NCBI RefSeq assembly: GCF_001570605.1
Contig: NZ_BBXG01000007.1
Coordinates: forward strand, 56,042 to 120,041
Direction of reading: 5' to 3'
Source of the DNA: Herbidospora cretacea
GTDB lineage: Bacteria > Actinomycetota > Actinomycetes > Streptosporangiales > Streptosporangiaceae
Length of the DNA stretch: 64,000 nucleotides
Shown here: piece after piece, positions 34,805 through 50,966 of the stretch
Layout of the letters: each line of letters starts with the position of its first letter
Numbering within the stretch: position 1 is the stretch's first letter
The notes under the pieces: generated by a model
Databases searched by the model: none
Told to the model about the DNA's origin: nothing
Seen by the model: the letters and a program-made list of their open reading frames with translations, nothing else
Made by a program: the position numbers and the translations under genes

Positions 34805-35401
34805 ATGGAAGAACTGCCGATCAAGGGCGCCTACCTCTACACCCCGAGGCTGTTCCGCGACGATCGCGGCACGTTCATGGAGTCGTTCCGGGCCGCCGAG
34901 CTGTCCGAGGCCACCGGCCATGGTCTGCGCCTGTCCCAGACCAACACCTCGGTCTCGGCCAAGGGCGTGATCCGGGGTGTCCACTACGCCGACGTGCCAC
35001 CCAGCCAGGCGAAATACGTGACCTGTGTGTCGGGCCGGATCCTGGACGTGATCGTCGACCTCCGGGTGGGCTCGCCGACCTTCGGGGAGCACGTCTCGGT
35101 GATCCTCGACTCGGAGGACTTCCGGAGCGTCTACGTCTCCGAGGGCCTCGGCCACGGCTTCGCCGCCCTGACCGACGCGACCGTCTTCTACCTGTGCTCC
35201 GAGCCCTACGCGCCGGCCCGGGAGCGGGGCATCAACCCGCTCGACCCGGCGCTCGGCATCGATTGGCAGGTCTCCGACCCGGTGCTGTCCGAAAAAGACG
35301 TACAGGCGCCATCGATGAAGCAGGCCCTCGACGAGGGCCTGCTTCCCGATTTCGACGCGTGTACGGCCTTCTACGAGACCCTGGGCCGATCTTCTAGTTG
35401 A
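34805..35401 (+). CDS. rfbC: dTDP-4-dehydrorhamnose 3,5-epimerase
   Basis: A 198-residue RmlC-type cupin. RLFRDDRGTFMESFR, the catalytic-loop motif GVIRGVHYADVP and SEGLGHGFAALTDATVFYL match the family, with the active-site His in RGVHY. It converts dTDP-4-keto-6-deoxyglucose to the L-configured keto sugar between RfbB and RfbD. TAAGGAGA stands about 6 nt before the ATG. It lies 19 kb from rfbABD at the far end of the locus, an unusual separation. Overlaps korB convergently by 8 bp. Confidence 0.92.
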   Translation: MEELPIKGAYLYTPRLFRDDRGTFMESFRAAELSEATGHGLRLSQTNTSVSAKGVIRGVHYADVPPSQAKYVTCVSGRILDVIVDLRVGSPTFGEHVSVILDSEDFRSVYVSEGLGHGFAALTDATVFYLCSEPYAPARERGINPLDPALGIDWQVSDPVLSEKDVQAPSMKQALDEGLLPDFDACTAFYETLGRSSS

Positions 35402-36440
35402 TCTTCCAGGTGTCGCCGCCCTGGAGCAGTTCGTCGAGGTCGCCGTGGCCGCGCTGGGCCACGGCCAGGTCGAGCTGCTCGCTCATCAGGCTGTCGTAGG
35501 AGGGCCGGTCGACCGACCGGAAGACGCCGATCGGCACGTGCTGGAAGGCCGGCTCGTCGAGCCGGCTCAGCGCGAACGCGAGCGACGGGTCGGGGTTGTG
35601 CACGTCGTGGACGAGGATCTCCGACTCGGCGATCGAGTCACGCGCCACGACCTCCAGACCACCGGTCGGCGCGAGCTTCACGGCCTGGGTCGCGTTGGCG
35701 ATCGGCTGGCCGTGCTCCAGGCGCAGCGTGATCACGTCACGCTTCTCGGGGTCCTTGAGGTCCTCGAACGCGTTGTCGTTGAAGATGTTGCAGTTCTGGT
35801 AGATCTCGACCAGCGAGGTGCCCTGGTGGGCGGCGGCCTCGCGCAGCACCGAATGAAGGTGCTTGCGGTCGGAGTCGATGGTCCGGGCGACGAACCCGGC
35901 CTCGGCGCCGACGGCCAGCGAGATCGGGTTGAACGGCTTGTCGAGCGAGCCCATCGGCGTCGACTTGGTGACCTTGCCGATCTCCGAGGTGGGGCTGTAC
36001 TGGCCCTTGGTCAGACCGTAGATCCGGTTGTTGAACAGCAGGATGTTCAGGTTGACGTTGCGGCGCAGCGCGTGGATCAGATGGTTGCCGCCGATCGACA
36101 GGGCGTCGCCGTCACCGGTGATCACCCACACCGACAGGTCGGGGCGCGAGGCCGCCAGACCGGTCGCGATGGCCGGGGCGCGGCCGTGGATCGAGTGGAA
36201 CCCGTAGGTGTTCATGTAGTAGGGGAACCGCGAGGAGCAGCCGATGCCCGACACGAACACGGTGTTCTCGCGCTTGATCCCGAGCTCGGGCATGAACGAC
36301 TGCACGGCCGCCAGGATCGCGTAGTCACCGCACCCGGGGCACCAGCGCACCTCCTGGTCGGACTTGAAGTCCTTCAGGGTCTGCTTGCCCTCGGCCTTCG
36401 GCACCAGCGCCAGGCCCTTGCCGTTCAGGGATTCACTCAC
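35394..36440 (-). CDS. korB: 2-oxoacid:ferredoxin oxidoreductase, beta subunit
   Basis: A 348-residue thiamine-diphosphate subunit. RWCPGCGDYAILAA holds the CxxC of the cluster region, and GDGDALSIGGNHLIHALRRN is the GDG-x(n)-N thiamine-diphosphate motif; LLFNNRIYGLTKGQYSPTS is typical of KorB. With KorA it oxidatively decarboxylates 2-oxoglutarate (or a similar acid) to the acyl-CoA and reduces ferredoxin. Its start overlaps the korA end by 8 bp. Confidence 0.9.
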   Translation of the reverse strand: MSESLNGKGLALVPKAEGKQTLKDFKSDQEVRWCPGCGDYAILAAVQSFMPELGIKRENTVFVSGIGCSSRFPYYMNTYGFHSIHGRAPAIATGLAASRPDLSVWVITGDGDALSIGGNHLIHALRRNVNLNILLFNNRIYGLTKGQYSPTSEIGKVTKSTPMGSLDKPFNPISLAVGAEAGFVARTIDSDRKHLHSVLREAAAHQGTSLVEIYQNCNIFNDNAFEDLKDPEKRDVITLRLEHGQPIANATQAVKLAPTGGLEVVARDSIAESEILVHDVHNPDPSLAFALSRLDEPAFQHVPIGVFRSVDRPSYDSLMSEQLDLAVAQRGHGDLDELLQGGDTWKIN

Positions 36441-38280
36441 TGTCGATCACTTCCTGGATCACTCCGGCCAGCTCCTCGGCCTTGAACGGAAGTCCGCGCA
36501 CGCGGTTGTAGCTGATGATGTCGACCAGGAACTTCGCCCGCAGCAGCAGCGCGAGCTGACCCAGGTTGATCTCCGGCAGGAGGACCTTGTCGTAGCTCTT
36601 CAGCACCTCGCCGATGTTCTTCGGGAACGGGTTGAGGTGGCGGATGTGGGCCTGCGCGACCTTCCCGCCGCCCCGGCGGACCCGGCGGATCGCCGCGGCG
36701 ATCGGGCCGTAGGTCGAACCCCAGCCGAGCACCAGCACCCGCGCGTCGCCGTCGGGGTCGTCGACCTCGACGTCGGGCACGTCGATGCCGTCGATCTTGG
36801 CCTGGCGCAGCCGGACCATGAGGTCGTGGTTGTTCGGGTCGTAGGAGATGTTGCCGGTGCCGTCGGCCTTCTCGATGCCGCCGATGCGGTGTTCGAGGCC
36901 GGGGGTGCCGGGGATCGCCCACGGGCGGGCCAGCGTCTCGGCGTCGCGCTTGAACGGCAGGAACGTCTCGCCGTCGTCGCCGTTGGGCTCGGTCGTGTAG
37001 GGCACCGAGATGTCGGGCAGCTCGGCCTGGGACGGGACCTTCCACGGCTCGGAGCCGTTGGCCAGGTAGCCGTCGGAGAGCAGCATCACCGGGGTGCGGT
37101 ATTTGATCGCGATCCGGGCGGCCTCGACCGCGGCGTCGAAACAGTCGCTCGGCGTCGCCGGGGCGATCACCGGCACCGGCGACTCGCCGTTGCGGCCGAA
37201 CAGCGCCATCAGCAGGTCGGTCTGCTCGGTCTTGGTCGGCATGCCGGTCGAGGGACCGGCGCGCTGCACGTCGACCACGATCAGCGGCAGCTCGGTGGTG
37301 ACCGCGAGGCCGACCGTCTCGGCCTTGAGCGCCACACCCGGGCCCGACGTGGTGGTCACGCCGAGCGCGCCGCCGAAGGCCGCGCCCAGGGCGGCGCCGA
37401 CGCCGGCGATCTCGTCTTCGGCCTGGAAGGTCCGGATGCCGAACCGCTTGTGCTTCGACAGCTCGTGGAGGATGTCGGAGGCCGGGGTGATCGGGTAGGA
37501 GCCCAGGAACAGCGGCAGCTTCGACTGGACCGACGCCGCGACCAGCCCGAGGGCCAGCGCCTGGTTGCCCGAGATGTTCCGGTAGACGCCGGCGCTCAGC
37601 GGGGCGGGCTTGATCTCGTAGGAGACCGAGAACGCCTCGGTCGTCTCGCCGTAGTTGTAGCCCGCGTTGAAGGCGGTCACGTTGGACTTGGCGATCTCGG
37701 GCTTCTTGGCGAACTTGGTCTCGATGAACTTGATGGTCGCCTCGACCGGGCGGCCGTAGAGCCACGAGAGCAGGCCGAGGGCGAACATGTTCTTCGCGCG
37801 CTCGGCGTCCTTCTTGGAGATGTCGAACTCTTCGAGCGCCTTGACCGTCAGCGAGGTCAGCGGCACCGAGTGGAGCCGCCACTCGGCCAGGCTCTCGTCT
37901 TCGAGCGGGTTGGTGTCGTAGCCGACCTTCTGCAGGTTCCGCTTGGTGAACTCGTCGGCGTTGGCGATGATGTCGGCGCCGCGCGGCAGGTCGGACAGGT
38001 TCGCCTTGAGGGCGGCCGGGTTCATCGCCACGAGGACGTTGGGCGCGTCGCCCGGGGTGAGGATGTCGTGGTCGGCGAAGTGGAGCTGGAAGCTCGACAC
38101 TCCGGGCAGGGTGCCTGCCGGGGCGCGGATCTCGGCCGGGAAGTTGGGCAGCGTCGACAGGTCGTTGCCGAACGACGCGGTCTCCGCCGTGAAGCGGTCG
38201 CCGGTCAGCTGCATACCGTCGCCGGAGTCGCCCGCGAACCGGATGATCACGCGGTCGAGTTGCTGCACCTGCTTGGTCAC
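36433..38280 (-). CDS. korA: 2-oxoacid:ferredoxin oxidoreductase, alpha (gamma-alpha fusion) subunit
   Basis: A 615-residue fusion: an N-terminal gamma-type domain (VIIRFAGDSGDGMQLTGDRF, about residues 8-190) followed by the pyrimidine-binding alpha domain (LGSYPITPASDILHEL, FQAEDEIAGVGAALGAAFGG) and a C-terminal domain with WGSTYGPIAAAIRR. I use the GTG at 38280 because GAGGAGG lies 10 nt upstream; the frame continues open to 38328 without a ribosome site. Together with korB it supplies reduced ferredoxin, which may feed the incomplete complex I encoded just beyond. Confidence 0.9.
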   Translation of the reverse strand: MTKQVQQLDRVIIRFAGDSGDGMQLTGDRFTAETASFGNDLSTLPNFPAEIRAPAGTLPGVSSFQLHFADHDILTPGDAPNVLVAMNPAALKANLSDLPRGADIIANADEFTKRNLQKVGYDTNPLEDESLAEWRLHSVPLTSLTVKALEEFDISKKDAERAKNMFALGLLSWLYGRPVEATIKFIETKFAKKPEIAKSNVTAFNAGYNYGETTEAFSVSYEIKPAPLSAGVYRNISGNQALALGLVAASVQSKLPLFLGSYPITPASDILHELSKHKRFGIRTFQAEDEIAGVGAALGAAFGGALGVTTTSGPGVALKAETVGLAVTTELPLIVVDVQRAGPSTGMPTKTEQTDLLMALFGRNGESPVPVIAPATPSDCFDAAVEAARIAIKYRTPVMLLSDGYLANGSEPWKVPSQAELPDISVPYTTEPNGDDGETFLPFKRDAETLARPWAIPGTPGLEHRIGGIEKADGTGNISYDPNNHDLMVRLRQAKIDGIDVPDVEVDDPDGDARVLVLGWGSTYGPIAAAIRRVRRGGGKVAQAHIRHLNPFPKNIGEVLKSYDKVLLPEINLGQLALLLRAKFLVDIISYNRVRGLPFKAEELAGVIQEVIDSE

Positions 38281-38388
38281 AGCGCTCAGTCCTCCTCGAC
38301 AGACCAGGACAAGGTCTGCTCGTGGCACATGTGTGAATTCAATGCTAGATCCCTTTGCCGCGCAGATACGAATGCGCAGGGGTTGTGA

Positions 38389-40053: not shown

Positions 40054-40443
40054 GTGCGCGATTATCAGGGGGTGGACGGATACTTCGGGTCGTACGCGGT
40101 CGTGGCCGTGCTGCTGGCCGTCGGGGCGGCGATCTTCGCAGGGGCGCTGCTGGTCAACCGGCTGCTGCGCCCCGACCACCCGACCGAGGCCAAGCTGACG
40201 ACCTACGAGTGCGGCGTCGACCCCGTCGGCGACGGCTGGGCCCAGTCGCAGGTCAGGTACTACGTCTTCACCTATCTTTATGTCGTGTTCGCCGTCGACG
40301 CGGTGTTCCTCTTCCCGTGGGCGACCGTCTTCGCCGCCCCGGGCTTCGGCATGACCACCCTCGTCGAGATGTTCGTGTTCCTGGCGTTCATCGCGCTCGG
40401 CATCGTCTACGCGTGGCGCAAGCGCGTGCTCACTTGGACGTGA
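40054..40443 (+). CDS. nuoA: NADH-quinone oxidoreductase subunit A
   Basis: A 129-residue membrane subunit with three hydrophobic segments. TTYECGVDPVGDGWAQSQVR is the quinone-site loop characteristic of NuoA, including the conserved Cys in ECG. The first segment (VVAVLLAVGAAIFAGALLV) follows a short N-terminus. The start is uncertain: GTG 40054 or GTG 40072 (VDGYFGSY), neither with a good ribosome site. First gene of the partial complex I operon, 3 bp before nuoB. Confidence 0.9.
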   Translation: MRDYQGVDGYFGSYAVVAVLLAVGAAIFAGALLVNRLLRPDHPTEAKLTTYECGVDPVGDGWAQSQVRYYVFTYLYVVFAVDAVFLFPWATVFAAPGFGMTTLVEMFVFLAFIALGIVYAWRKRVLTWT

Positions 40444-40446
40444 CCC

Positions 40447-40944
40447 ATGGTTGATCTTCCTGCTCCGTCGTTCCGGCCCCCGGCCGGACCGGCCGCCCGG
40501 CTGGCGCCCAAGCCGATGAAGTTCGTGCTCAACTGGGGCCGCCGCTACTCGTTGTGGGTCTTCAACTTCGGCCTGGCCTGCTGCGCGATCGAGTTCATCG
40601 CCACCTCGGCGAGCCGCCACGACTTCATCCGCTTCGGCGTGATCCCGTTCGCCAACGGCCCCCGCCAGGCCGACCTGATGATCGTCTCGGGCACGGTCAC
40701 CGACAAGATGGCCCCGGCCGTGCTGCGCCTCTACGAGCAGATGCCCGACCCCAAGTACGTCATCTCGTTCGGGGCCTGCTCCAACACCGGCGGCCCCTAC
40801 TGGGACTCCTACTGCGTCACCAAGGGCGTCGACCAGATCATCCCGGTCGACGTCTACGTGCCCGGCTGCCCGCCCCGGCCCGAGGCGCTGCTCCACGGCA
40901 TCATGAAGCTGCAGGAGAAGATCGCGGGGGAGGGCATGACGTGA
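40447..40944 (+). CDS. nuoB: NADH-quinone oxidoreductase subunit B
   Basis: A 165-residue subunit holding iron-sulfur cluster N2, the last electron carrier before quinone. All four ligands are present: the tandem cysteines in GLACCAIEF, one in [13 protein letters not shown] and one in [15 protein letters not shown]. The short N-terminus ([19 protein letters not shown]) is Pro-rich. It should dock on NuoD, NuoC, NuoI, NuoH and NuoA, but NuoD is not encoded here. Overlaps nuoC by GTGA. Confidence 0.93.
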
Positions 40945-41471
40945 TCGACTTCAGCGGGTTCGGTTCCCGGGTCGTGATCTCCGAGTCGTTCGGCGAGACG
41001 ACCGCCGACGTCGGCCCCGGCGACTGGCTGGAGGTGCTGACCTTCTGCCGCGACCACGGGCTCGACTTCTTCGACTGGCTCACCGGCGTCGACGACCCGC
41101 CCGAGGGCTTCGCCGTCGTCGCCCACCTCGCCGACCAGCGTAGACACGAGCGTCTGCTGGTACGCACCCACGTGCCGCTGACCGATCCCGTGCTCCCCTC
41201 GGCGGTCGGCGTGTTCCGGGGAGCCGACTGGCACGAGCGGGAGACGTTCGAGATGTTCGGCGTGGTCTTCGAGGGCCACCCCGACCTCAGGCCCCTGCTG
41301 CTGCCCGACGGCTTCGAGGGCCACCCGCTGCGCAAGAGCTTCGTCCTGGCCGCCCGGGTGGCCAAGACCTGGCCCGGCGCGAAGGAGCCCGGCGAGTCGG
41401 GCACGGGCGCGCCCTCGCGCCGCAAGATGCTGCCGCCAGGGGTGCCGGCCGACTGGGGGCGCGATGCCTGA
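40941..41471 (+). CDS. nuoC: NADH-quinone oxidoreductase subunit C
   Basis: A 176-residue protein, near the normal size of an unfused Nuo[24 protein letters not shown] broken across the family signature (ERE..D..G..F..HP..R), then [10 protein letters not shown], are diagnostic. The GTG at 40941 overlaps the nuoB stop. The C-terminal 40 residues ([17 protein letters not shown]) are extra and basic. It overlaps nuoH by 8 bp, so nuoD is truly missing between C and H. Confidence 0.9.
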
Positions 41472-42411
41472 GCTGCTGGAGGTCGCGATCCGGCTGGTCG
41501 TGATCGTCGGGGCGTTCCTGGTGCTGCCGCTGATCGTCGGCCAGATGGAGCACAAGGCCATGGCCCACATGCAGAGCCGCCTCGGCCCCATGTACGCCGG
41601 CGGCTTCCACGGCTGGGCCCAGCTCATCGCCGACGGCGTGAAGTTCATGCAGAAGGAGGACGTCATCCCGGCGGCGGCCGACCGGACGGTCTTCAAACTG
41701 GCCCCCGCCGTCGCCCTGGTGCCCTACCTGGTCGTGCTGGTGGTGATCCCGGTCGGGCCCGGCCTGCTCGGGGTCGACCTCGACGCCGGGATCTTCTTCG
41801 TGCTGGCCGTGATGGGCGTCGGCGTGCTGGGCTCGATCATGGCCGGGTGGTCGTCCGGCAACAAGTACTCCGTCCTGGGCGGGATGCGGTCGGCGGCGCA
41901 GCTCATGTCGTACGAGCTGCCCTTGGTCCTGGCCGCCTCCAGCGTGGCCATGGCCGCCGGGACCCTGTCGCTCCAGGGGATCGTCGAGGCGTGGGAGCCC
42001 TGGTGGCTGGCCTGGCAGGCGATCGGCGCGGTGGTGTTCTTCGTCGCGGGGCTGGCCGAGCTGCGCCGCCCGCCGTTCGACATGCCGATCGCCGAGTCGG
42101 AGATCATCATGGGCCCGATGACCGAATACACCGGCATGCGGTTCGCCCTGTTCATGCTGACCGAATACGCCGGGATCGTGGTCCTGTCGGCGCTGACGAC
42201 GGTGCTCTACCTCGGCGGCTGGCAGGGGCCGCTGCTGCCCGGCCCGGTCTGGACGCTCATCAAGATCTTCGCGCTGGCGTTCGTCGTCATCTGGGTCCGG
42301 GTCAGCTTCCCCCGGATGCGCGAAGACCAGCTCCAGCGGCTCGCCTGGGTCGGCCTGGTGCCGCTGGCGCTGGTGCAGCTCGCGCTGACCGGGGTGGTGA
42401 AGGTCCTTTAG
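41464..42411 (+). CDS. nuoH: NADH-quinone oxidoreductase subunit H
   Basis: A 315-residue membrane subunit with about eight hydrophobic segments, forming the quinone entry channel with A and [26 protein letters not shown], broken across the loop, [17 protein letters not shown] and [13 protein letters not shown] match the conserved charged loops of NuoH. Ends 4 bp inside the antisense kinase gene, so rightward transcription either stops here or runs antisense through the two intervening genes. Confidence 0.92.
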
Positions 42412-43775
42412 TGGACGATCCGCAGCATGATGTCGGAGGCCGTGGGCCGGTTGTGCGGGTCCTTGTCCAGGCACGACGCGGCCAGGTCCCGTAACGAGGG
42501 CGGCAGCCGCATCAGGTCGGGCTGGTGGTTGATGATCCGGTTGAGGATCGCCGGGATGGTGTCCTCGCCGAACGCGTTCTTGCCCGACGCCGCGAACACC
42601 ATCGTGGCCGCCCACGCGAAGACGTCGGTCTCCGGCCCGACAGGACGGCCGCCGACCTGCTCGGGCGACATGTAGGCGGGGGTGCCCATGACCTGGCTCG
42701 CGGTCGCGTTGACCTGGTCGAGCGCCTTGGCGATGCCGAAGTCGATCACCCGGGGCCCGTCGGAGCCGATCAGCACGTTGCTCGGCTTGAAGTCGCGGTG
42801 CACGATCCCGGCCTTGTGGATCGCCGCCAGCGCGCCCGACGTCGCCAGCGCCAGCCGGGTCAGGCCGTCTTCGTTGCGCGGGCCCTTGTCCTTGACGAGC
42901 TGCTCCAGCGAGACGCCGTCGACGTACTCCGACACGACATAGGCCAGGTCGTCGGTGATGTTGACGTCCAGCACCCGGGCCGTGGAGAACGGCGCGACCC
43001 GGCGGGCCGCGTCGACCTCGCGCAGGAACCGCGCCTGGGCGTCCTTGTCCTTGGCGATGTGGGCGTGCAGCACCTTGACGGCGACCTTCTGCCCCCGCTG
43101 GTCGACGCACAGGTAGACGGCCCCCTGGCCACCCTGCCCGAGGTCGCCGACCACCCGGTAGGGCCCGAGGAACTGCGGCCCCTGGCTGCCGCGCGGCTGC
43201 GGCCCCATCGTCGAGGGGTGCGTCGGCTGGGTGAACGGCCGGGGCGGCGGCATGTTCATCGGCGGCTGGACGTAGGTCGGCCGCTGCATCGGGGGGTGCG
43301 GCGGCCGCTGGGGCTGGTGCTGGGGTGGGTAGCCCTGCTGCTGCGGCGGCGGCGTCATGTTCATCGGCCGGGGGGCCTGGAACTGCGGCTGCTGCACGGG
43401 CTGCCAGGCGTGACCCGGCTCGAAGACGCCGCGGCGGATGATCAGCGTGTGGGCGAGCCCGCCGAACCAGTTCAGGCAGAGCCCGATCGTCGTCGTCGTG
43501 TCGAGCCACACGGGCCACATCTCGACGTCCTCGTAGCTGGCGATGGCGATGAGGAACACGACGAAGTTCAGCGCGTAGAAACCGGTGGCGACGATCAGCC
43601 ACGGGCTGCGCTTCCTGGCGGCGGCGTACCCGATCACGAACGGTGTGCCGAACCCGCAGGTCAGCAGCGGAACCAGCGCCCACACCCAGGAGACCGCCGT
43701 GTTCGTGGCGGGCTTCTGCGGTTGCTGCGGCGGTTGCCAGTACGGATGCACAGCGCGAACAATACGTACTTCCAA
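42408..43775 (-). CDS. Membrane Ser/Thr protein kinase with N-terminal membrane module
   Basis: A 455-residue kinase with reversed topology compared with PknB types. Residues about 25-130 contain three membrane helices (VSWVWALVPLLTCGFGTPF, WLIVATGFYALNFVVFLIA, LCLNWFGGLAHTLIIRRGVF). A Gln/Pro/Met-rich linker (PPPQQQGYPPQHQPQRPP) follows, and then the kinase domain (about 200-455): GDLGQGGQGAVYL glycine loop, VAVKVL lysine, HRDFKPSNVLI catalytic loop, VIDFGIAK, GTPAYMSPEQV. All catalytic residues are present. There is no extracellular sensor. It lies antisense between nuoH and nuoI, 15 bp after the paralogous membrane-HhH gene. Start is TTG 43775 (GAGG upstream) or GTG 43751. Confidence 0.88.
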   Translation of the reverse strand: MEVRIVRAVHPYWQPPQQPQKPATNTAVSWVWALVPLLTCGFGTPFVIGYAAARKRSPWLIVATGFYALNFVVFLIAIASYEDVEMWPVWLDTTTTIGLCLNWFGGLAHTLIIRRGVFEPGHAWQPVQQPQFQAPRPMNMTPPPQQQGYPPQHQPQRPPHPPMQRPTYVQPPMNMPPPRPFTQPTHPSTMGPQPRGSQGPQFLGPYRVVGDLGQGGQGAVYLCVDQRGQKVAVKVLHAHIAKDKDAQARFLREVDAARRVAPFSTARVLDVNITDDLAYVVSEYVDGVSLEQLVKDKGPRNEDGLTRLALATSGALAAIHKAGIVHRDFKPSNVLIGSDGPRVIDFGIAKALDQVNATASQVMGTPAYMSPEQVGGRPVGPETDVFAWAATMVFAASGKNAFGEDTIPAILNRIINHQPDLMRLPPSLRDLAASCLDKDPHNRPTASDIMLRIVH

Positions 43776-43790: not shown

Positions 43791-44411
43791 TTACGGGAGA
43801 TAGACGCCGTATTCGGAGAGCTCGTCATTCATCGTTCCCGGCAGTTCCAGGAGATCCGACAGGTCCTCCGCCGAGGTGAACGTCACCGTCCGGCTGCGCG
43901 CCTCCAGCACCCGTTCGACCAGGTCGGGCGTCATCCCGGGAACGGTCCTGAGCACCACCGCGGGCGCGTGGTTCATGTCGACCAGCCCGCCGTCGTCGAA
44001 CCGCCGCCCCAGATCGGGCCGGCCCACTCCCAGCCGCCGCGCCCGGCCGGGATTGCGCCGCGCGATCGCCCGCGCCTCCTGCCGCTTCAGCCGCGCTCGC
44101 TCGAACGGGCACGCCGGCCCGAACACCTTCCTGCGGACCATGAACGCGTGGAGCGTTCCGCCCAGCCACGACACGAACAGGGCCAGCACCATCGCCACGG
44201 CCCAGCCCCCGGAGGGCGTCCCCGTCGCGTTGCCGATGAGGAGCCAGGCGGCCATCGAGGTGGCGTACAGAAGCCCGGATAGGGCCAGCCACCAGCTACG
44301 CCGCCAGAAAGCCGCCCACAGGAAGGTGAACGGCGTCGCGAAACCAATGGTGACCAGGGGCGCCACCGCCCACAGAAATCCGCGAGCCGCCGAGCGCGGC
44401 ACCTGGTCCAT
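43791..44411 (-). CDS. Membrane protein with C-terminal helix-hairpin-helix domain
   Basis: A 206-residue protein. Its first 105 residues repeat the membrane module of the neighbouring kinase: FLWAVAPLVTIGFATPFTFLW against WVWALVPLLTCGFGTPFVIGY, and SWLGGTLHAFMVRRKVFGP against NWFGGLAHTLIIRRGVFEP. A basic linker (RARLKRQEARAIARRNPGRA) leads to a ComEA-like helix-hairpin-helix pair: VDMNHAPAVVLRTVPGMTP and FTSAEDLSDLLELPGTM. Such domains usually bind DNA non-specifically but also mediate protein contacts. It is the first gene of the antisense pair, with the kinase 15 bp downstream. Start ATG 44411. Function unknown. Confidence 0.78.
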   Translation of the reverse strand: MDQVPRSAARGFLWAVAPLVTIGFATPFTFLWAAFWRRSWWLALSGLLYATSMAAWLLIGNATGTPSGGWAVAMVLALFVSWLGGTLHAFMVRRKVFGPACPFERARLKRQEARAIARRNPGRARRLGVGRPDLGRRFDDGGLVDMNHAPAVVLRTVPGMTPDLVERVLEARSRTVTFTSAEDLSDLLELPGTMNDELSEYGVYLP

Positions 44412-44510: not shown

Positions 44511-45410
44511 GTGGCGCGCATACCAGGAACAGGCCTGGCCAAGGGCTTGGCCGTGACGCTGCGACACATGCTCACGCGGTCGGTGACGCAGCAATATCCC
44601 GAGGTCCGGCCGGACCTCCCGCCCCGATCCCGCGGCGTGATCGCGCTGGTCGAGGAGAACTGCACGTCCTGCATGCTCTGCGCGCGGGAGTGCCCTGACT
44701 GGTGCATCTACATCGACTCCCACAAGGAGACCCTCCCGGCCCCCGAGGGCGGCCGTCCCCGGCAGCGGAACGTGCTCGACCGCTTCGCGATCGACTTCTC
44801 GCTGTGCATGTACTGCGGGATCTGCATCGAGGTCTGCCCGTTCGACGCCCTGTTCTGGGCGCCCGAGTTCGAATACGCCGAGGGCGACATCCGCAACCTG
44901 CTCCACGAGAAGGAGCGCCTGGCCGAATGGGTCCCGAGCGTGCCCGTGCCCCCGAGGCACGAACCGAACGCCGAGCCCCCCAAGGAGGTGGCGGCCGCCC
45001 GCCGGCCCGCCCGTGGCCCGGCAGCACCCGGCGCGGCCAAGCCTGAGCCCTCGGAGCCGACCAAGGCACGCCCGGCGCCCGAGGCCACGGCGGCTTCCGA
45101 GGAGACCAAGGCGCGTCCGGCGCGTGACGTGCGAGCCATCCGCCCGCCGGGCCGGCTGCCTGACCGGGCGTCCGGTGACGAGGAACCTCCGCCCGCCCCT
45201 CCACGTGATGTGCGCTCGATCCGCCCACCTGGGCGGCTGCCGGACCAGCCCGCCGACGAGCCCGTGGCACCCGAGTCGCCGAAGCCCCGGGTACCGCGCG
45301 ATGTGCGCTCGATCCGCCCGCCGGGGCGGTTGCCGGATCAGGGACCTGCGAAACCGCCCGAGCGCCCGAATCCGGAGGGCGGGGAGCGGCCCGATGAGGA
45401 GGGGCCGTGA
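44511..45410 (+). CDS. nuoI: NADH-quinone oxidoreductase subunit I with long repeat-bearing tail
   Basis: Ferredoxin-like subunit with two 4Fe-4S motifs, [15 protein letters not shown] and [18 protein letters not shown], both intact (clusters N6a/N6b). NuoI proteins usually end about 20-60 residues after the second motif; this one continues to residue 299. The tail is Pro/Ala/Glu/Lys-rich and disordered and contains three copies of RDVR(A/S)IRPPGRLPD at about residues 205-218, 232-245 and 263-276. The first copy has Ala and the others Ser at position 5. The GTG at 44511 ([13 protein letters not shown]) is my start; a TTG six bases upstream is possible. Overlaps nuoJ by GTGA. Confidence 0.9.
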
Positions 45411-45940
45411 CGAGTGCCGGCTTCTGGCCGCCGTCCGCGCTTGAGGTGGTGTTCCTGCTGCTCGGGCTGGTCGCCGTCGGCTCGGCGTTGATGGTGGTGA
45501 CGACGCGGCAGCTGGTGCACGCCGCGCTGTGGCTGGTCGTCTGTTTCGGGGCGCTGGCGGGGTGTTATCTCGTGCTGACGGCGGAGTTCGTCGCGTGGGT
45601 GCAGGTGCTGATCTACGTGGGCGCCGTGGTGGTGCTGCTGCTGTTCGGGATCATGCTGACGCGGGCGCCCATCGGGCGCAGCGACGATCTCGACTCCGGT
45701 AACCGGGTGGTCGCGGGGGTCGTCGCGGTCGCCACGGCCGGGGTGCTGGTCGGCGTCGTCGTGGGCGGGTTCCAGCACGCATACGCCGAGCTCCAGCCGG
45801 GGGCGGGGTCGGCGGAGACGCTCGGGGCGAGCATCTTCCGCAACTGGGTGCTGCCGTTCGAGGCGCTGTCGGTCCTGCTGCTGGCGGCGCTGATCGGGGC
45901 GATCGTGCTGTCGCGTACCGACATCAAGGGCCGGGGGTGA
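45407..45940 (+). CDS. nuoJ: NADH-quinone oxidoreductase subunit J
   Basis: A 177-residue membrane subunit with five hydrophobic segments. [22 protein letters not shown], broken at the pi-bulge helix, and [20 protein letters not shown] are the family signature. It has a 35-residue matrix-side loop ([19 protein letters not shown]). Part of the membrane arm. Spaced 4 bp from nuoK. Confidence 0.9.
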
Positions 45941-45944
45941 GGGG

Positions 45945-46253
45945 GTGCACGTCGTCTATCCCGCCGTCGTGGCCGCGCTCCTGTTCTCCATCGGCGTGTA
46001 CGGCGTCCTCGCCCGGCGCAACACCATCCTCGTGCTGATGTCGGTCGAGCTCATGCTCAACGCGGTCAACCTCAACCTGATCGCCTTCGACGTCTGGCTG
46101 CGCGACGCCCTCCACTCGGGCCAGGTCCTGACCCTGTTCGTGATCGTCATCGCCGCCGCCGAGGTCGGGATCGGGCTGGCCATCGTGCTGGCCGTCTTCC
46201 GGACCCGGCGGGCGATCGAGCTCGACCGGCTGCGCGATCTGGGGGAGCCGTGA
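45945..46253 (+). CDS. nuoK: NADH-quinone oxidoreductase subunit K
   Basis: A 102-residue subunit with three membrane helices. The helix-2 glutamate in [18 protein letters not shown] and the helix-3 glutamate in [20 protein letters not shown] are the conserved proton-channel residues. GTG start at 45945 directly after the nuoJ stop; GTGA overlap with nuoL. Confidence 0.92.
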
Positions 46254-48076
46254 TCGTCTCGCTCATCGTGGTCCTGCCGTTCGCGGGGGCCGTGCTCGGG
46301 CTGCTGCTCTCGCGCCATCCCCATGGCCGCGACCCGGCGGGGAACCTGGCCGCCAACAAACGCGCGGGCCTGTTCGGGGTGGTGCCGACCGCCCTGTCGG
46401 CGGGGCTCACCGGGTGGCTGGTCTGGGAGAACACGCCGTCCACCAACGTGCTGACCGTGATCGACACCGGCGGGGTCGCGATCACCGTCGGCCTGGAGGT
46501 CGCCGAACTGTCGGTGCTGACGGCGATGCTCGTCGGCGTGGTGGCGCTGGCGGTGCAGGTCTACTCAGTGGGATACATGCGGGGCGAGATCCGCTATCCC
46601 TCCTTCAGCGCCTTCATCAGCCTGTTCACCAGCGCGATGCTGCTGGTCGTGTTCGCCGCCGACCTCATGGTCCTCTATGTCGGCTGGGAGATCATGGGCC
46701 TGTGCTCCTACCTCCTGGTGGGGCACTGGTGGGAGGAGCGGGCCAACTCGCGCGCCGCGATCAAGGCCTTCCTGGTGACGCGGCTGGGTGACGTCGGCTT
46801 CCTGTTCGGCATCTTCGTGCTGGGCTTCGCGGCCGGGTCGTTCCGGATCTCCGACGTCCTGGCCGCCGACATCCCCACCCCGACCCTGGTCCTGGCGACG
46901 CTCCTGCTGCTGGCGGGTGTGGCGGGCAAGAGCGCGCAGGTGCCGCTGCACACCTGGCTGCCCGACGCGATGGCCGGCCCGACCCCGATCAGCGCCCTGA
47001 TCCACGCCGCGACGATGGTGGCGGCGGGCATCTTCGTGGTGGCCCGCCTCTACGTGCTGTTCCCGCAGCCCACCCTCGACGTGCTCGGTGTGGTCGCGGC
47101 GATCGGCATGCTCGGCGCGGCGCTGGCGGCCTTCGCCCAAAACGACCTGAAACGGGTCCTGGCCTACTCGACGATCAGCCAGCTCGCCTACATGGCCGCC
47201 GCCCTGGCCGGTGGCGCGCGCGACGCGGCCGTCTTCCACCTGGTCACCCACGGCGCCTTCAAGGCCCTGCTGTTCCTGTGCGCGGGCGCGGTCATCCACC
47301 ACGTGGGCTCCAACCTGCTCCACCACATGGGCGGCCTGCGCCGCGCGATGCCGGTCACGTTCTGGACCATGACCGTCGGCTACGCCGCCCTGATCGGCCT
47401 GCCCCCGGCCAGCGGCTTCTTCAGCAAGGACGCCGTCCTCTACGGCCTGGAGCGCTCGGACAGCCCCATCCAGCTCCTCCTCTACGGCTCGGCCCTGCTC
47501 ACCGTCGGCGTGACCGGCGCCTACGCGACCCGGGCGTGGCTGATGACCTTCTTCGGCACCGGCAAGATCCAGGCCCTCCCCGAGCCCGTCCCCGGCACCG
47601 CCCACGTCTTCGACGGCCGCGAGGCCCCGGCGACGATGCTGTGGCCGATGGGCATCCTGGCCGTCCCCGCCCTGCTCCTCGGCTTCACCGACGCCGGCGA
47701 GTTCCACCTCGCCCCGGCGGTGACGGCGCTGGTCGTGGCCCTGCTGGGGGTGGCGTTCGTCTACGTGATCTGGCGCGGCTCCCCCGAACGCGACCCGGCC
47801 CGGCTGCTGGGCGCGTTCCGCGACCCGTGCGAGCAGGCCTTCTACGTCGACCGGCTGTACGCGGCGGTGCTCGTCCGCCCGGTGCTCGCGCTGGCCCGGG
47901 GCGTCGTGCGGACCGACGACGAGGTGGTCGACGGGGCGGTGCGCGGCTCCGGCCGGGCGACCGTCGGCCTCTCGGGCCTGACCCGGCACCTCCAGAACGG
48001 CAACGCGCAGCTCTACGTGACCGGCGTGCTCGCCGGGGTGCTGCTGATCGCGGTCGGGGCGGTGGTGCTCGGATGA
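46250..48076 (+). CDS. nuoL: NADH-quinone oxidoreductase subunit L
   Basis: A 608-residue antiporter-like subunit. [24 protein letters not shown] (in two halves around the key Glu), [20 protein letters not shown] with its Lys, and [13 protein letters not shown] are the classic proton-channel signature. A C-terminal part with [14 protein letters not shown] corresponds to the amphipathic lateral helix region. Largest membrane-arm subunit; overlaps nuoK (GTGA) and nuoM (ATGA). Confidence 0.93.
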
Positions 48077-49554
48077 GCGTTCTGCTGGTCGCGCTGCTCG
48101 TGGTTCCCCTGCTGGGGGCCGCGGCGCTGCTCGTCCCGGGGCCGCTCGGCAGGGTGGCGGTGCGGTTCGGGCTGACGGTGTCCGGGGCGGTGTTCGCGGT
48201 CGCCGTCGCGGCAGCCTCCGCGTTCGACTACTCCGACGCCGGGACCATCCAGGGGACCGTCGACTTCGCGTGGATCCCGTGGCTCGGGGTGCGGTTCCAT
48301 CTCGGGATCGACGGGATCTCGCTGCCGCTCGTCGTGCTGACAGCGCTGCTGACCCTGCTGTGCCTGATCTACCTGGCCGGTCACGAGCCCGAGCGGGCCA
48401 GGGAGCTGGTCTTCGCGCTGCTCGTGCTGGAACTCGGCATGATCGGCACGTTCCTCTCGCTCGACCTGCTGCTGTTCTTCGTGTTCTTCGAGGTCGTGCT
48501 GATCCCCATGTACTTCGTCATCGCCGGCTGGGGTGGCGAGGGGCGGCGGCGGGCGGCGTACAAGTTCATCCTCTACACGCTGCTCGGGTCGGCGGTGCTG
48601 CTCGTCGGGCTGCTCTACGTCTGGGCGCAGACCGGCACGCTCGACATGGTGCGCCTCGCGGCCGAACACCCGATGAGCCGGTCGGCGCAGATCCTCGCGT
48701 TCGTGGCGATCGGGCTCGGGCTGGCCGTCAAGACGCCGATGTGGCCGCTGCACACCTGGCTGCCCGACGCCCACACCGAGGCCCCGACCGTGGGATCGGT
48801 GCTGCTCGCGGGGGTGCTGCTGAAGATGGGCACCTACGGGTTCGCCCGGGTGGCCATCCCGGTCCTGCCCGAGGGGGCCGCCGCCGTCGCGCCGTGGCTG
48901 GGCGCGCTGGCCGTCGTCGGGATCGTCTACGGCGCGCTGGCCTGCCTGGCGCAGCGGGATCTGAAGCGGCTGATCGCCTACTCGTCCGTGGGGCACATGG
49001 GGTTCGTGCTGCTCGGCTTCGCGACGCTCACGCCGGTCGGGATCAACGCCGCCCTCTACGGCAACGTCGCCCACGGGCTGATCACCGGCCTGCTGTTCTT
49101 CTTGGTGGGTGCGGTGAAGGAGCGCTACCGCACATCGGACCTCGATCAGCTCGGGTCGGGGCTGCTCGGGCGGCTGCCCTATGTCGGGTCGCTGCTGACC
49201 TTCGCCTGCGTCGCCTCGCTCGGGCTGCCCGGCCTGGCGGGGTTCTGGGGCGAGATGCTCGCCCTCCAGGGCGCCTACGAACCGGCCGCCGGGCTGTCCC
49301 GGCCGCTGTTCGTCACGTTCATGGTGATCGGCGGGCTCGGGGCGGTGCTGACGGCGGCCTATTTCCTGGTCATGCTGTCGCGGCTCACGCACGGCCCGTG
49401 GGGCGGGCCTGGGCCGTCGATCCACGACGCCACCCGGGTCGAGCTGACCGCCTGGGTGCCGCTGGTGGTGCTCATCCTGGTCTTCGGGGTGTGGCCGTCG
49501 GCGCTGCTCGGGCTGACCACACCTGCTGTACAGACGCTTCTGGGGGTGCCGTGA
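48073..49554 (+). CDS. nuoM: NADH-quinone oxidoreductase subunit M
   Basis: A 493-residue antiporter-like subunit with about fourteen membrane helices. [41 protein letters not shown] with its Lys, and GSVLLAGVLLKMGTYG identify it as NuoM rather than L or N. The ATG at 48073 overlaps the nuoL stop; longer upstream frame lies inside nuoL. Confidence 0.93.
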   Translation: MSVLLVALLVVPLLGAAALLVPGPLGRVAVRFGLTVSGAVFAVAVAAASAFDYSDAGTIQGTVDFAWIPWLGVRFHLGIDGISLPLVVLTALLTLLCLIYLAGHEPERARELVFALLVLELGMIGTFLSLDLLLFFVFFEVVLIPMYFVIAGWGGEGRRRAAYKFILYTLLGSAVLLVGLLYVWAQTGTLDMVRLAAEHPMSRSAQILAFVAIGLGLAVKTPMWPLHTWLPDAHTEAPTVGSVLLAGVLLKMGTYGFARVAIPVLPEGAAAVAPWLGALAVVGIVYGALACLAQRDLKRLIAYSSVGHMGFVLLGFATLTPVGINAALYGNVAHGLITGLLFFLVGAVKERYRTSDLDQLGSGLLGRLPYVGSLLTFACVASLGLPGLAGFWGEMLALQGAYEPAAGLSRPLFVTFMVIGGLGAVLTAAYFLVMLSRLTHGPWGGPGPSIHDATRVELTAWVPLVVLILVFGVWPSALLGLTTPAVQTLLGVP

Positions 49555-50966
49555 CCCAGTCGATCGACTACGGGGCGATCGCCGCGCCTCTGATCCTGGC
49601 GCTGACCGCCGGGCTCGTGCTGCTGCTCGACGCCTTCCTGCCCGCCCGGCGGGGGATCCGCACCGCTCTCGGCGGTGTCACCCTGGCCGCGCTGGTGGCG
49701 GCGTTCTCGGTGGTGGTGGCCCAGCGGGGCGTGAAGGAGACGTTCTGCGTCCCGTCCGTCGGATGTTCCTACGTCGTCGACCCCCTCACCGTGGTGTTCG
49801 CGGGGCTGGCCGTCGGGGCCGGGATCGTGGTGGTCCTGCTGTCGACGGCGCAGCTCGCCGACGGTGACATCCCGGTCGGGGAGTGGTATTTCCTGCTGCT
49901 CGCGGCCCTCACCGGCGCCGTCACGCTGCCCGCCTCGCGGGATCTCATCATGCTGGTCGTGGCGCTCGAACTGGTCTCGCTGCCGGTGTTCGCGCTGACC
50001 GCGCTGCGCCGCTACGACGGGCTGGGAGCCGAGGCCGCCCTGAAGCTGTTCGTCGTCTCCGTCGTCTCCACGGCGGTGATGCTGTTCGGCGTCAGTCTCC
50101 TCTACGGCGTCACGGGCGCCGTCCACCTCGACGCGATCGCGGCGGCCCTCGCGCAGCCGGAGCGGCCGGGGGCCGGGCCGGTCGTGGCGGTCGGGGCCGT
50201 CATGGTCATCGCCGGGTTCGGGTTCAAGATCGCCGCCGTGCCGTTCCACTTCTGGGCGGGCGACGTCTACCAGGGCGCGCCGATCCCGGTCGCGGCGCTG
50301 CTGTCGGTCGTGTCGAAGGCGGCCGGGTTCGCCGGGCTCATGCTCGTGCTCACCCAGGCCCTGCCGAGCGAGTCGGCCACCTGGACGCCCATCGTGGCGG
50401 TCCTGGCCGCGCTGACCATGACCGTGGGCAACGTGCTGGCGCTCCGGCAGACCCACCCCGTCAGGCTGCTGGCCTGGTCGTCGGTGGCGCAGTCGGGATA
50501 CGTGCTGGCGCCCGTCGCGACCACTGACACCCAGGCGGCCACCGCCTATTTGGTCTTCTACGCCGCCATGAACCTGACGGCGTTCGCGGTCGTCATGGCC
50601 GTGCCCCACGACACGCTCGACGGTTACCGGGGGCTGGCCTTCGGCCGTCCGGGGGCCGGGCTGGCGCTGGGCTTCGCGCTCATCTGCCTGGCCGGGCTCC
50701 CTCCCGGCCTCGCCGGGCTGTTCGCCAAGGTGGTCGTGTTCCGTGAGGTCGTGGCGGGCGGCCTCGGCTGGCTGGCGGTGGTGATGGCGGTCAACACGGT
50801 GATCGGCCTCTACTACTACATCGCCTGGACGGCCCGTCTCTTCACCCCCGCCGACGCGGTGAGACCCGTCGTGGCCGGGCCCGCCTGGATGGCGGTGGGC
50901 GTGGCCGCGGTGGTGGCGGTGGCCTTCTCGATCGCGCCGCAACTGGTCTTGGCCACCTTGGGCTGA
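49551..50966 (+). CDS. nuoN: NADH-quinone oxidoreductase subunit N
   Basis: A 471-residue antiporter-like subunit, last of the nuo genes. VVALELVSLPVFALTALRRYD carries the transmembrane Glu, GFGFKIAAVPFHFWAGDVYQGAP the channel Lys, and LLAWSSVAQSGYVLAPVA is the NuoN signature. GTG 49551 overlaps the nuoM stop. A 66-bp gap separates it from the HtpX-like gene. Confidence 0.93.
   Translation: MTQSIDYGAIAAPLILALTAGLVLLLDAFLPARRGIRTALGGVTLAALVAAFSVVVAQRGVKETFCVPSVGCSYVVDPLTVVFAGLAVGAGIVVVLLSTAQLADGDIPVGEWYFLLLAALTGAVTLPASRDLIMLVVALELVSLPVFALTALRRYDGLGAEAALKLFVVSVVSTAVMLFGVSLLYGVTGAVHLDAIAAALAQPERPGAGPVVAVGAVMVIAGFGFKIAAVPFHFWAGDVYQGAPIPVAALLSVVSKAAGFAGLMLVLTQALPSESATWTPIVAVLAALTMTVGNVLALRQTHPVRLLAWSSVAQSGYVLAPVATTDTQAATAYLVFYAAMNLTAFAVVMAVPHDTLDGYRGLAFGRPGAGLALGFALICLAGLPPGLAGLFAKVVVFREVVAGGLGWLAVVMAVNTVIGLYYYIAWTARLFTPADAVRPVVAGPAWMAVGVAAVVAVAFSIAPQLVLATLG

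Follow-up and report, generated by a model that had tools for sequence, protein, structure and literature searches.

The window, i.e., the whole analyzed stretch of 64,000 nucleotides from Herbidospora cretacea (contig NZ_BBXG01000007.1), hosts a second complex I operon (nuo2) arranged as nuoABCH-IJKLMN beside korAB. By Pfam it comprises nuoA, nuoB, nuoC, nuoH, nuoI, nuoJ, nuoK, and three genes of antiporter-like type and is devoid of nuoE, nuoF, and nuoG. An epimerase gene precedes korB, and an M48 peptidase gene follows nuoN. The features are, in window coordinates:

35394..38328, minus strand: korB and korA, 2-oxoacid:ferredoxin oxidoreductase type, divergent from nuo2 (alpha subunit TIGR03710, 1.4e-198, above cut-off; beta subunit PF02775, TIGR02177 just below cut-off)
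40054..40443, plus strand: nuoA2 (PF00507, 4.8e-32)
40447..40944, plus strand: nuoB2, without the C-terminal tail motif of most NuoB2 examined from non-carriers, i.e., clusters whose NuoI2 lacks the motif described below (PF01058; nuoB_fam above cut-off)
40941..41471, plus strand: nuoC2 (PF00329, 3.8e-38; NuoC_fam below cut-off)
41464..42411, plus strand: nuoH2, membrane arm (PF00146, 7.1e-104)
42408..43775, minus strand: Ser/Thr-type protein kinase gene, antisense within the operon (PF00069, 3.9e-46; N-terminal membrane segment by reading only)
43791..44411, minus strand: helix-hairpin-helix protein gene, antisense within the operon (PF12836, 3.5e-6; membrane segment by reading only)
44511..44954, plus strand: NuoI2 core with two 4Fe-4S motifs (TIGR01971 and Fer4 matches)
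44955..45407, plus strand: NuoI2 tail, low-complexity, 151 residues (39 Pro, 22 Arg, 22 Ala, 17 Glu)
45123..45164, plus strand: motif copy 1, 14 residues, Ala after VR
45204..45245, plus strand: motif copy 2, 14 residues, Ser after VR
45297..45338, plus strand: motif copy 3, 14 residues, Ser after VR
45407..45940, plus strand: nuoJ2 (PF00499, 5e-39)
45945..46253, plus strand: nuoK2 (PF00420, 2.1e-28)
46250..48076, 48073..49554, and 49551..50966, plus strand: nuoL2, nuoM2, and nuoN2, assigned as L, M, and N by order (Proton_antipo_M, 1.5e-75, 3.4e-71, and 3e-55)

The nuo2 operon contains no nuoD. A second NuoD-like gene was located far off (G000:C2:599499-600242, L150), besides the nuoD of nuo1, and second NuoD-like genes were likewise found in 7 out of 7 further genomes examined; we infer that the distant second NuoD serves Nuo2. 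At the window locus, the only pointer toward a ferredoxin-dependent complex I is the adjacency of korAB. Near its end, NuoC2 displays a conserved SRRKxLPPGVPxDW-like stretch, the PPG of which recalls the NuoI2 motif. The Shine-Dalgarno sequence of the respective next gene may account for two further protein ends, GG(T/P)Q at the extreme C-terminus of NuoC2 in Streptomyces and EEGP/EES in NuoI2.

TIGR01971 was the best match of the window NuoI2 (4.8e-28), scoring 97.2 bits against a curated cut-off of 113.05, and the identity as NuoI is backed by the operon context. Two 4Fe-4S binding motifs are present (Fer4 in two stretches, Fer4_7 at 52-115), and the protein is likely the electron-entry subunit of the second Nuo complex. 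Translation probably starts at GTG 44511 and not at TTG 44505, since (V/M)(A/G)RIPG is common to relatives; the stop codon occupies 45408-45410, and nuoI2 overlaps nuoJ2. The original prediction had regarded such a tail as unusual for NuoI, which agrees with NuoI1 of the same genome. It had further described three near-identical copies of RDVR(A/S)IRPPGRLPD, and these are indeed found at 45123-45338, spaced by 27 and then 31 residues from start to start. One word of 9 residues is present three times in the tail; among 5000 tail shuffles, three reached such a word of 7 residues, and none a longer one. At DNA level, the 42-bp copies share 34/42 (copies 1 and 2), 37/42 (copies 2 and 3), and 33/42 (copies 1 and 3) positions. 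Judged by its composition and length variation, the tail is probably disordered; AlphaFold was run on the window NuoI2 and on L181, a short carrier, and both models (mean pLDDT 56.9 and 57.4) were too poor to be used for this purpose. A search of solved structures with NuoI2 returned iron-sulphur cores only, with matches ending by residue 164.

A search for NuoI orthologues including a copy count revealed the motif in 61 out of 130 distinct complete NuoI2 proteins, amounting to 97 copies. The concern that the repeat might occur in no other species was thereby removed, as it is present in many other genera. Single copies prevail (35 carrier proteins), followed by two (19), three (5), four (1), and five (1). 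Within the genus Herbidospora all seven genomes host the motif, five with three copies, one with four, and one with a single copy. These counts exclude duplicates and proteins truncated at the end of a contig (e.g., L113, L182, L187, L200, and L203). In L186 ([Actinomadura] parvosata subsp. kistnae) the NuoI2 frame stops early and two motif copies follow downstream in another frame; this locus was scored as non-carrier in the 130-protein count.

The motif core reads R-x-I-(R/K)-P-P-G-x-L-P. As the search pattern fixed R-x-I-(R/K)-P-P-G, all other positions could be counted independently: Leu is found at +8 in 97/97 and Pro at +9 in 82/97 copies, Val, Ile, or Pro at -1 in 94/97, and Asp, Asn, Ala, or Ser at -2 in 97/97. 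The residue following VR varies (Ser 47, Ala 38, Gly 11, and Asn 1 of the 97 copies). In the flank, Arg predominates over the other residues at -11 to -9 and occupies -6 in 61/97 copies. The tail behind the second cluster motif comprises 65-562 residues in carriers and 35-163 in non-carriers, and the last motif copy lies 8 to 217 residues from the C-terminus. As is typical for a short linear motif (SLiM), a short conserved stretch is thus embedded in a poorly conserved region. Scanning all tails with a 13-position profile gave no half-decayed copies, with known sites scoring about 25 or more and other tail positions at most 6.

Comparison of adjacent copies separated motif from surroundings at codon level. 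Motif codons were identical in 193 cases, differed synonymously in 138, and changed the residue in 65, compared with 153, 93, and 508, respectively, for codons of the flanks at matching offsets; if single changes struck the motif codons at random, about 33% would be synonymous. The motif is under purifying selection. This synonymous excess indicates that the residues are selected; therefore, DNA likeness alone is no sign of recency. The recent amplification that had been proposed from the similar DNA of the copies is supported only in part. Six out of seven Herbidospora genomes have three or four copies, making the window copies older than most of the sampled genus. Their differing codons are synonymous save the Ala/Ser one, and selection on the residues would yield this degree of DNA similarity. 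Recent-looking tandem copying is seen elsewhere, namely in L118 (genome G062), whose copies 2, 3, and 4 do not differ at any of 11 motif codons. Tandem units are found in the tails of L118 and L011.

Taxonomically, the motif is restricted to one clade. NuoI2 was detected in 44 of 80 family genomes, with the motif present in 29 and absent in 14, and with the protein truncated by a contig end in one. Among the matches listed, carriers belong to Herbidospora, Sinosporangium, Nonomuraea, Streptosporangium, Planomonospora, Sphaerisporangium, Microtetraspora, Planotetraspora, Microbispora, Acrocarpospora, and Spongiactinospora. Non-carriers of the same GTDB family, e.g., Actinomadura craniellae (L224), have short tails, and the motif was absent from all 38 fully read NuoI2 out of 60 class-level matches in other families. 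The sampling is uneven, one search having covered the best 80 of 501 confirmed matches, a set rich in near relatives and Streptomyces. In the tree, 42 out of 43 carrier tips form one clade (support 0.968) with no non-carrier within. The remaining tip, L118, sits outside on a long branch, but a tree of KorA places it within the clade (nodes 0.897 and 0.97). L148 (same genome as L043) and L112 represent the deepest carrier branches.

Occurrence beyond NuoI2 was evaluated on DNA level. The pattern (V/I/M)RxIRPPG yielded 62 matches in the 80 family genomes, 34 in NuoI2 by position and 28 elsewhere; the reversed-pattern control gave 2 matches against these 28 and underrates the background. In the window genome, all three matches are the three copies. 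Within 30 fetched loci, 17 such other sites were considered as the motif in other proteins and rejected, none of them having Leu at +8. The looser RxIRPPG gave 63 matches in the seven genus genomes, 20 of them in NuoI2 (reversed control 7), and seven in the window genome, three of them in NuoI2. Among 19 other sites of this looser pattern in 30 fetched loci, two have Leu at +8 (L246 of the window genome and L248), and L246 has Leu-Pro as well. Their low third-position G+C (0.48 and 0.54) suggests that both are probably untranslated, by a composition test that is weak in that the NuoI2 tail itself is not flagged; L243, L256, and L259 show coding-like composition and no Leu-Pro. As far as partial readings of the matched loci go, the motif appears nearly specific to NuoI2.

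The kinase gene within the operon had led to the proposal that the Ser following VR is a target of this kinase. As a conserved function this was not supported. Between nuoH (or nuoC) and nuoI, 27 out of 45 carrier loci and none of 63 non-carriers have a kinase gene, and in copies 2 and 3 of the window the Ser is placed in a basic context, both in favor of an operon kinase that phosphorylates the motif as a switch. On the other hand, 18 of the 45 carriers lack the kinase at this spot, including both deepest branches (L043, from the L148 genome, and L112), and the position following VR, at which a kinase substrate would conserve a phosphorylatable residue, is Ala, Gly, or Asn in 50 out of 97 copies, with 23 of 61 carriers having no Ser copy at all. 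The motif therefore does not need the kinase, and such a switch is very unlikely as its general explanation. A kinase-tail link in some lineages is possible, because the kinase at that spot is limited to carriers.

Reading of the partner subunits revealed that non-carrier NuoB2 often has a motif-bearing tail of its own, in the forms ALQSGLVRPP and variants (Streptomyces), LTRDLIAPP (Knoellia), and D(P/Y)(S/T)IIPG(L/F/M) (Actinomadura-type members). With patterns written post hoc, the tails having already been seen, strict matching identified 27 out of 38 non-carriers (LVxPP 19, IIPG 10, both 2) vs. none of 39 carriers. A looser pattern, applied to 97 distinct loci, matched 35 out of 41 NuoB2 in clusters with NuoH2 and no NuoI motif (shuffles: mean 7.6, maximum 14) and 2 out of 41 in clusters with NuoH2 and the NuoI motif, the latter being within shuffle range (mean 0.5, maximum 3). 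Loci without a NuoB anchor were dropped (L213 and L148 from the strict count, L289 from the looser one). Both matches in arm-bearing carriers come from the deepest branches (LLRAP in L148 and LLRPP in L112), as if these had been caught in a NuoB2-to-NuoI2 transition. NuoB1 of the window genome has no such tail motif. The NuoI2 and NuoB2 motifs thus show a complementary distribution, the counts of which are not independent, since the NuoB-to-NuoI switch is a single event on the tree; the two motifs would be functionally equivalent. The NuoC2 ‘LPPGVP’ was rejected as an explanation of the switch, being present in carriers and non-carriers alike.

Several nuo2 clusters are cut down to nuoB-nuoC-nuoI without nuoH2, many of them beside korA (L118, L170, L123, L125, L289-L296, and L300-L302). 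They seem to represent a Q-module that lost, or never had, the membrane arm. The best NuoH genome-wide was nuo1-like at 38-44% identity in four family genomes (G062, G226, G052, and G023) and in 11 out of 12 others; the twelfth, G113 (L297), also contains NuoH2 fragments of 77% and 66% identity in its nuo2 cluster, as if the membrane arm were being lost. NuoL/M/N-like matches (28-38%) in four arm-less stretches (L290, L292, L293, and L300) may belong to nuo1, and a second nuoD is kept in all four family genomes. The looser NuoB2 pattern was found in 0 of 13 non-carriers and 0 of 2 carriers without NuoH2, and NuoB2 of these 13 non-carriers has hardly any tail. This absence favors a role tied to the membrane-bound enzyme. 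In the stretches read, korA adjoins 8 of the 13 tail-less clusters; therefore, the tail cannot be a general requirement for KorAB to pass on electrons. Two carriers have the NuoI motif in the absence of NuoH2, L170 (G226, Streptosporangium violaceochromogenes), in which a nuoJ fragment is left, and L118, which has five copies and no nuoJ in its cluster.

As the best explanation, held with moderate confidence, a SLiM on the probably disordered NuoI2 tail would dock a peripheral protein, having replaced a NuoB2 counterpart in the ancestor of the carriers. The tail would act as a flexible tether extending from the Fe-S subunits where electrons enter the complex, and from it the motif would dock its partner onto the Q-module of a membrane-bound complex without NADH module; extra copies would raise the local valency, tuned by copy number. 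Most other Actinomycetes examined have a comparable motif on the C-terminal NuoB2 tail; the ancestor of the carriers would have gained the motif on NuoI2, with that of NuoB2 decaying. The docking sites suggested by the original prediction are backed by the conservation of 97 copies in 61 of 130 proteins and by the lack of half-decayed ones, although neither a partner nor structural backing was found. A regulator or another respiratory protein is the leading guess for the partner, though itself less likely than not. An electron donor, i.e., ferredoxin or KorAB, is slightly less likely, as is a partner of any other kind, and a subunit of the same complex is less likely still. A wider reading is put forward tentatively: a portable motif would have moved from the NuoB2 to the NuoI2 tail and would bring an electron donor, or else a regulator, to the actinomycete complex I that is membrane-bound and has no NADH module, at a valency set by the number of copies.

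NuoB and NuoI are neighbors in complex I. The motif might thus act as a staple within the complex, binding the membrane arm or NuoC/NuoD and steadying the Q-module, in which case either Fe-S neighbor could bear it, congruent with the tail-less NuoB2 in 13 out of 13 non-carrier clusters without intact NuoH2. We consider this unlikely: five motif copies in the absence of NuoH2 in L118 disfavor a pure membrane-arm staple, and one to five copies at 8-217 residues from the C-terminus are a better fit for a tether. The same lack of NuoB tails where NuoH2 is missing, together with the Arg-rich flanks (-11 to -9 and -6), could speak for a basic patch with hydrophobic residues holding the tail on lipid head groups or a polyanion. 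This is quite improbable, as the fixed Pro-Pro-Gly and Leu suggest binding in a shaped groove, acidic residues surround the ‘IIPG’ form of NuoB2, and L118 again has no NuoH2.

Pro-Pro-Gly is also an EF-P-dependent stall sequence, and with nuoI overlapping nuoJ it might pause ribosomes ahead of the membrane subunits. Against this highly improbable pausing signal stand the conserved Leu and Pro behind PPG, the lack of PP in the ‘IIPG’ form of NuoB2, and the L118 cluster without nuoJ. The long, fast-changing tails with tandem units in L118 and L011 resemble neutral low-complexity drift or repeat expansion on DNA level; considering 138 synonymous vs. 65 residue changes in the motif (93 vs. 508 in the flanks), family-wide conservation, and the lack of decayed copies, the probability of such an origin is negligible.

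A short motif in a disordered tail, possibly in several copies, is found in the carboxysome scaffold CsoS2. Rubisco-binding peptides of carboxysomes are described in parts of PMC10614612; the proteins and the motif differ from those of NuoI2, and the two are likened by description only. Passages of PMC11238625 describe NADH-module-less (11-subunit) complex I-like enzymes, e.g., of Desulfitobacterium hafniense, in which the Q-module has its first cofactors in NuoI; they present the direct electron donor as an open question and cite the notion of a docking platform for several donors. The window operon resembles this type in having no nuoE/F/G and differs from it, as described there, by a nuoD outside the operon, korAB next door, and a motif-bearing NuoI tail. 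In the cyanobacterial complex I-like enzyme, as portrayed in the same passages (PMC11238625), an addition close to where electrons enter may recruit the soluble electron carrier, as here; however, it uses separate extra subunits for ferredoxin, whereas in the window the tail of a core subunit would serve a putative recruitment. KorAB of Mycobacterium tuberculosis is an actinobacterial 2-oxoglutarate:ferredoxin oxidoreductase, the kind to which the window korAB is annotated; the likeness is one of annotation, and the gene neighbors named in parts of PMC2773412 are not nuo.

Titles and displayed abstracts of the open-licence papers returned by the searches contain no mention of such a motif. The enzyme type is already known, while the array of motifs and what looks like its move between subunits seem to be new. 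Being conserved and located on the entry subunit, the peptide lends itself as bait, and a peptide pull-down could name a partner directly. If true, the move of the motif between two subunits would be a clear case of docking-site turnover at the level of a whole complex.
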